21,863 nucleotides of DNA from a virus, in IMG/VR virus record IMGVR_UViG_3300042390_000049, positions 1 through 21,863 of that record; one strand, written 5' to 3'. The notes under the pieces were generated by a model. It did not search any database, was not told where the DNA came from, and worked only from the letters and a program-made list of their open reading frames with translations. Both the position numbers and the translations under genes were made by a program. Of the stretch, positions 14,999 to 16,882 are shown piece by piece. Numbering within the stretch: position 1 is the first letter of the stretch; each line of letters opens with the position of its first letter.

Positions 14999-15163
14999 TT
15001 AATTATAGCAGGATTTGATAACCTTGTCAACCATAGGGTCTTTACGAGCCACAGCCCGCCATGCCCGATTGGCTTTGCTATATTGCTTAGGATCTGTAGT
15101 AAAGCCCGGGAAGCGACTCTTAGCCCAGATCACAAAGTTCAAACGTTCAATCTCGTTCTTCAT
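14999..15163 (-). CDS. 54-residue basic protein whose 3' end is the next promoter
   Basis: The start is put at the ATG at 15163, which overlaps the upstream stop (TGATG); the longer frame from 15199 lies inside the previous gene. The protein is MKNEIERLNFVIWAKSRFPG... with a basic middle (QYSKANRAWRAVARKD). The last codons Val-Asp-Lys ... Cys-Tyr-Asn-stop are exactly the -35 box, the spacer and the TATAAT -10 box of the downstream promoter, so the coding end and the promoter are the same DNA. Function unknown. Confidence 0.7.
   Translation of the reverse strand: MKNEIERLNFVIWAKSRFPGFTTDPKQYSKANRAWRAVARKDPMVDKVIKSCYN
15002..15030 (-). promoter_or_regulatory. Sigma70-type promoter wholly inside a coding sequence
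   Basis: TTGACA (15030-15025), 17-base spacer and TATAAT (15007-15002) drive the 14969 to 14067 unit. Both boxes are in codons of the 14999-15163 gene. A partial AACC/GGGT repeat flanks the -35 box. Confidence 0.9.
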
Positions 15164-15444
15164 CACATAGTCCAGTAGAGTTCGCTTGAAGGATCGCAAG
15201 AGCGAGGTGTGTCGTGTGCTATCTGTACGTCCTTGCCCGACATCAAGTTCTTTACAGTCTTCATTGTAGGGAAGTACTCAAAGCGCCAGCCCTTAGTTGC
15301 AGGGTACAGCCAGTAGAGTCCGTTGCACTCGTGTCGCATGCCTTCTTCTGTACGGCCTTGCCAAACGGTAGTAGAGAACAGGCGCTCACCTGTCTTGCAT
15401 CGCTTGTCTGCTTTGTAGATATACATGGTGTAGTCTTGTTTCAT
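15163..15444 (-). CDS. Unknown protein, 93 aa
   Basis: The protein MKQDYTMYIYKADKRCKTGE... has a strand-rich N-terminus and the segment LFSTTVWQGRTEEGMRHEC. The middle has LYWLYPATKGWRFEYFPTMK and the C-terminus is polar. The order of aromatic strands and a central helix suggests a small alpha+beta protein. AGGAGCGAGCG precedes the ATG. It is co-transcribed with the downstream 54-residue gene. Function unknown. Confidence 0.75.
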   Translation of the reverse strand: MKQDYTMYIYKADKRCKTGERLFSTTVWQGRTEEGMRHECNGLYWLYPATKGWRFEYFPTMKTVKNLMSGKDVQIAHDTPRSCDPSSELYWTM

Positions 15445-15471: not shown

Positions 15472-15500
15472 ATTATAAGATAAAAAGGAACCATTGTCAA
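15472..15500 (-). promoter_or_regulatory. Sigma70-type promoter for the 15444-14999 operon
   Basis: TTGACA (15500-15495), 17-base spacer and TATAAT (15477-15472), perfect hexamers. It lies 11 bases from the hairpin that ends the candidate RNA gene. Confidence 0.9.
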
Positions 15501-15510
15501 TCTGTCTCTA

Positions 15511-15533
15511 CCTATACGAACGTCTCGTATAGG
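15511..15533 (-). terminator. 9-bp hairpin at the end of the candidate RNA
   Basis: CCTATACGA (15511-15519) pairs with TCGTATAGG (15525-15533) without mismatch. It may end or protect the transcript, though no T-run follows. Confidence 0.5.
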
Positions 15534-15678
15534 CCTTGACGGTCATTACTCCTAGATTGTCCACCGCAACTCCGGATTGCTCCTGCTTCATGCTCCTGGA
15601 CTAGACCAGCGCCCGTCGGTACTGTCATCTTCCCAGTCGCCTAGTGGTCTAGGTAACCTTTTTACTTACTATGCCTCT
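15511..15678 (-). ncRNA. Candidate small RNA with its own promoter and 3' hairpin
   Basis: A perfect promoter (15707-15679) reads into about 165 bases without a credible gene. The predicted transcript would begin near 15672 and end in a perfect 9-bp hairpin CCTATACGA/TCGTATAGG (15511-15533, 5-base loop). A 7-bp stem CTAGACC/GGTCTAG can form inside, and CTAG-ACCA-CTAG forms a small hairpin. Frames of 27 and 38 codons exist but have ribosome sites jammed against the ATG, so translation is unlikely. No T-run follows the hairpin. A structured RNA is the best reading; function and exact ends are unknown. Confidence 0.5.
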
Positions 15679-15716
15679 ATTATAGCACTAATCAATACCC
15701 TTGTCAACCATAGGGT
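15679..15716 (-). promoter_or_regulatory. Promoter of the candidate RNA, -35 inside an ACCCT/AGGGT repeat
   Basis: TTGACA (15707-15702), 17-base spacer and TATAAT (15684-15679). ACCCT (15697-15701) and AGGGT (15712-15716) flank the -35 box. It lies just after the stop of the GIY-YIG gene. Confidence 0.9.
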
Positions 15717-15718
15717 CT

Positions 15719-16045
15719 TTACAAGTATTGATCATTCAACTCTGGCTCAAACAACTTGACCAGCTCACGCTCGTAAGCATAAGCCTCCTTGCGACCACGC
15801 ACAATGGCAATGATCTCGTGAGTCCAGTTCATAGCCAATCCACCTGACTTCAAGTAGATGTACAAGGCCCACAGTCTGTTTTCGTTGACTGCACGGCTCT
15901 TGTGCTTGCGCCATCTCTCTGCAACAACCTTGTTGGCATTTGGCAAGCTCTTACGTGTCAAGCCAATGTAGCTATCACCACGCTCGCTAGTCATAGCGTA
16001 GATGATGTAGTTGCAATCTGTACGTGGTGTTCTGCGTGTCTTCAT
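15719..16045 (-). CDS. GIY-YIG family nuclease, probably from a leaderless mRNA
   Basis: From the ATG at 16045 the protein has 108 residues. YIIY (13-16) and SYIG (25-28) are the GIY-YIG strands, ERWRKHKS supplies the arginine/histidine region, and YERELVK (91-97) holds the conserved glutamate. This is the catalytic layout of GIY-YIG endonucleases such as phage homing or repair nucleases. It has no additional DNA-binding domain, so it is the minimal type. The ATG is six bases after the -10 box (16057-16052), at the expected transcription start, and has no ribosome site. A longer frame from 16114 would cross the promoter and is rejected. Confidence 0.82.
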   Translation of the reverse strand: MKTRRTPRTDCNYIIYAMTSERGDSYIGLTRKSLPNANKVVAERWRKHKSRAVNENRLWALYIYLKSGGLAMNWTHEIIAIVRGRKEAYAYERELVKLFEPELNDQYL

Positions 16046-16051
16046 GTTAGT

Positions 16052-16656: not shown

Positions 16657-16685
16657 TTGACGCCCCGCCCAAAACGTGCTATAAT
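16657..16685 (+). promoter_or_regulatory. Plus-strand sigma70-type promoter toward the DnaA boxes
   Basis: TTGACG (16657-16662), 17-base spacer and TATAAT (16680-16685). It is the only strong plus-strand promoter in the window. The transcript would begin at about 16692 and run through the DnaA boxes; the sequence AAAACGTGC before the -10 box also occurs in the promoter at 13364-13392. Confidence 0.85.
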
Positions 16686-16691
16686 AATCGC

Positions 16692-16796
16692 ATGTTCGAA
16701 CATAGTGGGGGTGGACGGCGACAGCGCCTAGCGTTTCAGCTGTGGATAAAAGGTGTACAACCTGTGGATAACTTTTGGCCTGTGGATAAGCTGTGA
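16692..16796 (+). CDS. Possible 34-codon leaderless frame through the DnaA boxes
   Basis: An ATG at 16692 lies exactly six bases after the plus-strand -10 box, the same geometry as the GIY-YIG gene. The frame encodes 34 residues, from MFEHSGGGRRQRLAFQLW to a TGA at 16794-16796, and covers three DnaA boxes. It is short and has no known motif. The transcript could instead be a replication primer or regulatory RNA. I report it as tentative. Confidence 0.25.
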   Translation: MFEHSGGGRRQRLAFQLWIKGVQPVDNFWPVDKL

Positions 16797-16824
16797 ATAG
16801 TCTATTTCGCTGAAGTTATCCACA
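16741..16824. promoter_or_regulatory. DnaA-box cluster: candidate replication origin or DnaA-titration site
   Basis: Four perfect 9-bp DnaA boxes (TTATCCACA or its complement) lie at 16741-16749, 16763-16771, 16781-16789 (plus-strand TGTGGATAA) and 16816-16824 (opposite orientation). A degenerate TGTGAATAG is at 16792-16800. Four exact copies in 84 bases cannot be chance. Host DnaA would bind here. Whether this opens DNA for phage replication, attracts DnaA away from the host, or regulates the nearby promoters cannot be told from sequence. Confidence 0.85.
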
Positions 16825-16882
16825 GGTTATTAACAGTGTTGTAGTATAACAACAGAGCCAAAAAAACCGGTTGACACTAGGG

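Follow-up and report, generated by a model that had tools for sequence, protein, structure and literature searches.

The window analyzed here, a virus record of IMG/VR, is 21,863 bases long. Thirteen perfect promoters of the form TTGACA-17-TATAAT were identified on its minus strand, while none would be expected from shuffling. One of them (15707-15679) has an extended -10, bearing out an earlier note on this DNA that described a perfect promoter at this place. It is located between the gene of a GIY-YIG domain protein and that of a 93-aa protein with a promoter of its own, so that about 200 bases separate the two start signals (Table 1). As the earlier note held, these bases lack a credible frame: frames of 27 and 38 codons were intact in just 6 and 2 of 44 homologues, respectively, and the RNA lengths among homologues differed by non-multiples of three. 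No intrinsic terminator was found in the window between the RNA and the 93-aa gene.

Other signals were observed elsewhere in the window. A terminator-like hairpin at 7609-7589 (AACCCTGCGGTTGACAGGGTT TCTTTTT) has a 3' arm that extends over a promoter's -35 box and spacer, and these bases are therefore common to terminator and promoter. A near-consensus promoter (TTGACG-17-TATAAT) at 16657-16685 on the plus strand diverges from the minus-strand block (16620-16592 on the minus strand). Repeated TGTGGATAA-like motifs lie beyond the plus-strand promoter, at about 16739-16830.

Table 1. Coordinates of the RNA, its structural parts and the adjoining genes and promoters in the window
Feature	Position	Strand	Remarks
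Preceding gene, GIY-YIG domain protein	15719..16048	-	PF01541, E 1.6e-5
Sigma-70 promoter of the RNA	15679..15707	-	TTGACA-17-TATAAT, extended -10 (TG)
Structured RNA, ~195 nt (5' end predicted)	15478..15672	-	model match 15669-15478, 179.9 bits
P1 (leader-trailer) helix, 5' strand	15657..15669	-	
P2 helix, 5' strand	15643..15653	-	CCUAGA-CCACU
P3/P3b arm	15593..15639	-	GACG loop
P4 arm	15574..15583	-	short in window copy
P2 helix, 3' strand	15551..15565	-	GGUGG-acaa-UCUAGG
GUAAUGA, P2-P5 linker	15543..15549	-	near-invariant, unpaired
P5 arm	15496..15540	-	P5a GUCAA/UUGAC; P5b 9-bp hairpin with GACGU loop; internal loop
P1 helix, 3' (trailer) strand	15477..15488	-	CCUUUUUAUCUU
Promoter of next (93-aa) gene	15472..15500	-	perfect; -35 box and spacer within RNA 3' end
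Next gene, 93-aa protein of unknown function	15163..15444	-	own promoter and SD

Fold and covariation of the RNA

A total of 45 members were aligned and folded, and the refined structure contains 53 pairs on 38 members, with 85.9% of the cells paired. Double-changed cells numbered 362, compared with 126.4 (sd 10.3) after shuffling, a count that is not a probability because the members are related, and with 42-94 in slid controls in which the partner was moved by 1-3 columns. The slid controls preserve relatedness, yet remained far below 362. The covariation score was 0.462 against 0.190 and is somewhat favoured, since the structure was partly chosen from covariation in the same alignment.

The consensus fold consists of a closing helix (P1) and two three-way junctions. 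In P1, A-U, G-C and U-A interchange at the same places, and double changes occur alike in P3, P3b, P4, P5a and P5b. The stem CTAGACC/GGTCTAG considered in the earlier note is not the conserved one; covariation backs CCTAGA...TCTAGG (15653-15648 with 15556-15551) together with CCACU/GGUGG. This helix (P2) occurs as CCUACA/UGUAGG, CCUAGA/UCUAGG, CCUAGU/ACUAGG and CCCACA/UGUGGG, and its extension as CCRYU/GRYGG, where the window has A-U instead of G-C. The unpaired junction bases GGUUA, AGG, AUGAA and GUAAUGA are near-invariant, as is the GACG loop of P5b. All five helices and the conserved junction sequences are present in the window copy. When the window RNA was folded alone, its centroid agreed with the consensus (z = -2.5).

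The boundaries of the RNA differ from those given before. The perfect 9-bp hairpin that had been taken for its end is present (CCTATACGA/TCGTATAGG, 15533-15511), but it forms the tip of the internal arm P5b and is not a terminator. The proposed interval of 15511-15684 is too short, and the RNA is predicted to reach about 15478, into the promoter of the next gene. From the position of its promoter, the 5' end is predicted 7 nt past the -10.

Two other pairings were considered and rejected. A local CCTA..TAGG hairpin at the 5' motif failed because CCTA covaries with the far strand and not with TAGG. The idea that GGUUACC pairs with the 3' portion of 16S rRNA was also dismissed; one member (L070) has GGUUAAC and shows the compensating exchange in P2 (C-G to A-U), indicating that this base serves P2.

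The covariance-model search recommended by the earlier note was positive. The model, R1, recovered the window copy with an E value of 2.6e-48, the window being among the training sequences. With homologues, covariation, covariance model and frame loss taken together, the functional RNA that the note had proposed is strongly supported.

Distribution of the R1 family

A blastn comparison of the interval with loci of the neighbouring protein detected homologues at other gene positions, the longer ones being 74-83% identical over 89-177 bases. Two relatives (L008 and L031) have kept both flanking genes, separated there by one promoter only; the RNA is missing at that place and is located elsewhere. 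Scanning IMG/VR with the 5' motif GGTTACCYASWCCRYTAGG returned at least 120 stretches, two of which were judged false because the rest of the RNA was missing. A second scan with the 3' core only gave 75 stretches, 31 of them new; 24 of the 31 matched the model at 57-197 bits, and the remainder look like coding coincidences. From these pattern scans, the RNA is carried by at least about 140 contig stretches.

The model found exactly one copy per contig in 13 contigs spanning 208-383 kb, and one in the 21.9-kb window fragment. Contigs of 208-383 kb are jumbo phages. For the helicase of the window, the nearest counterparts belong to Pseudomonas jumbo phages, among them PA5oct and Paride (50% identity). 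The model at E 10 gave no R1 match in these two phages, and in Atu_ph07 only a chance-level match (10.5 bits, E 0.79). Among 50,697 records of named phages, no blastn match was obtained with the window region, a family-like sequence or a divergent relative as queries. An apparent isolate match (L235) was not recognized by the model and seems to be a coincidence in coding sequence. The 84,980 species of GTDB contained six exact pattern matches that look like chance, the best model score being 10.9 bits.

The 4227 families of Rfam 15, which include ROOL, GOLLD, pRNA, tmRNA, RNase P RNA, 6S and group I introns, were searched by gathering score and in E-value mode; only tRNAs reached gathering and the element was unmatched. 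No earlier description of the RNA was found in openly licensed papers or in Rfam 15. On the basis of these comparisons, the best reading is that R1 represents a new family of phage-borne stable RNA with no detected relative.

A second conserved candidate RNA of about 87 nt, X (AAGGCGATCCTC...GACTCGGCCT), was encountered in L070:543-629(+), L101:8668-8753(-), L091:6159-6244(+), L032:5435-5519(+) and L102:12190-12275(+). It often lies between the promoter and the R1 RNA, and about 6 kb from R1 in a 383-kb contig, and it occurred once per contig tested. Exchanges of C-G to A-U and of A-U to G-C were seen in its stems. The L091 copy had no credible Rfam match.

Expression layouts

The relatives show two main layouts. 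In about 30 of the 83 distinct members, including the window, the promoter ends 20-30 nt before GGTTACC, and the RNA should thus start at P1. The distance is 20 nt in the window (identical copy L007), where boxA is absent. In the tRNA-array class the promoter is located near -90 and is followed by a boxA-like motif, a leader hairpin, the RNA and, from about +200, tRNA genes, the RNA being closed by a leader-trailer helix of about 21 bp. The boxA-like motif, TGTTCTTTAA(A/C)AA, lies 62-72 nt upstream of the RNA. It heads jumbo-phage tRNA arrays in L093, L094, L108, L120, L123, L125 and others, and in several members of this class one strand can enter either the leader hairpin or the leader-trailer helix, which compete for it. 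Sequences with at most two mismatches to the boxA of E. coli rrnB (TGCTCTTTAACAA, read from the genome) were found in 15 of 82 upstream regions and 1 of 410 shuffles.

The outer strands formed a median of 21 pairs (-23.9 kcal/mol) with their own mates, but 13 pairs (-7.5 kcal/mol) with swapped mates. P1 of the window is short: for the identical copy L196 the values were 13 pairs and -10.8 kcal/mol, against a swapped-mate median of 13 pairs and -7.5 kcal/mol. The leader-trailer helix was evident in the majority of relatives, but almost no outer pairing was seen in a few (L117, L190 and L203).

The framing of 16S rRNA is made up of boxA, leader helices and a leader-trailer helix (PMC10250234). 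One class of R1 relatives resembles E. coli rrnB in its promoter, boxA-like motif, leader hairpin, leader-trailer helix and tRNAs (PMC10250234), but its boxA departs from that of E. coli in 1-2 bases, none is present in the window copy, and the enclosed RNA matches no rRNA family in Rfam. The parallel is one of architecture and no reason to call the RNA an rRNA.

The 3' end of the window RNA overlaps the next promoter. The 3' strand of P5a (UUGAC) and the following A make up the -35 box of the next gene, the spacer holds the 3' strand of P1, and the -10 follows directly. In the window the P5a partner GUCAA matches, so that both helix and promoter are preserved, and one stretch of DNA does two jobs. 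The same overlap was found in L020, L039, L085, L089, L131, L139, L155, L163 and L226.

The genes neighbouring the RNA vary between phages and there is no constant downstream gene class; in 36 of 75 members the next promoter is located between +140 and +420. The variable neighbours indicate that the RNA does not regulate any one linked gene in cis.

Function of the RNA

We consider it likely that R1 is a trans-acting, stably folded phage RNA gene of about 195 nt. Action in trans is favoured by the independent promoter, the variable neighbours, the single copy per large contig, the closing helix and the frame loss. In the window, the host sigma-70 RNA polymerase would start the RNA at about 15672, and the transcript, closed by P1, would fold into two three-way junctions with the arms P3, P4 and P5. 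Since no terminator follows the RNA, its 3' end would probably result from trimming by an RNase at the leader-trailer helix P1. The freed RNA may then bind a host or phage partner. Translation or stable-RNA machinery would be the most likely target, given the rRNA-operon-like expression of the relatives and their place in tRNA arrays, and the ribosome, RNA polymerase with Nus factors and RNA-processing enzymes are the first candidate partners.

A bolder version of this proposal is that R1 is a stable jumbo-phage RNA expressed and matured in the manner of rRNA, which joins or modifies the translation machinery, and that in the window phage it has been cut down to a self-contained cassette, with RNA helix and next promoter using the same bases. 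The boxA antitermination, leader-trailer helix and trailing tRNAs would then exist because the RNA joins or modifies that machinery. We regard this version as tentative and rather doubtful.

It is unlikely that the RNA is a cis-acting leader, either an antitermination RNA such as phage HK022 put RNA or a 5' UTR with a regulatory role. In the tRNA-array class the RNA does stand at the operon head behind the boxA-like motif, and without an intrinsic terminator before the next gene the window RNA could partly be the 5' leader of the next mRNA. However, the next genes differ among phages and often carry their own promoter (the 36 members above), each contig above 200 kb has one copy, and excision is suggested by the closing leader-trailer helix.

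We give a low probability to an assembly made of RNA alone or a packaging RNA, as in the ROOL and GOLLD cages or the pRNA of phi29. The latter is a small RNA of a phage, closed by a helix between its 5' and 3' ends and containing a three-way junction. R1 shares these features, but has no Rfam match to pRNA, and the large phage contigs that carry it vary in gene context. RNAs C and D from the tRNA cluster of T4 are stable, of unknown function, and resemble R1 as stable phage RNAs among tRNA genes, but no sequence relation was found in the 50,697 phage records. ROOL and GOLLD, like R1, are phage-borne and structured, have no known protein partner and often lie beside tRNA genes (PMC12286853), and this common setting near tRNA islands, without a linked protein, would suit an assembly RNA. 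In contrast, R1 matches neither in Rfam and has a quarter to a third of their size (about 195 nt, against 659 nt in ROOL env-120 to more than 800 nt among these cage-forming RNAs), and unlike them it has both a promoter-only form and a form with boxA and leader-trailer helix.

That the RNA is a ribozyme performing chemistry itself, for example on tRNA or on its own precursor, is very improbable: the many near-invariant unpaired bases (GGUUA, AUGAA, GUAAUGA, GACG) would fit such a role, but known Rfam ribozyme families are unmatched and a conserved cleavage-site sequence beside the RNA was not noticed. A gene for a small protein of 27 or 38 codons was rejected as having practically no probability, for although the ATG frames have AGGAG- or GGGAAG-like sequence right before 15591 and 15628, these SD-like sequences are merely 0-2 nt from the start codon and the frames are not conserved, being broken in 38 and 42 of the 44 homologues.

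Large structured phage RNAs are few and their function is mostly unknown. The R1 family is conserved, occurs once in each of the large contigs analyzed, is spread over contigs of uncultured jumbo phages as long as 383 kb, and is of a size that is easy to make, probe and pull down. The rRNA-like expression unit of many relatives of the window RNA offers a direct, testable lead to host contacts.
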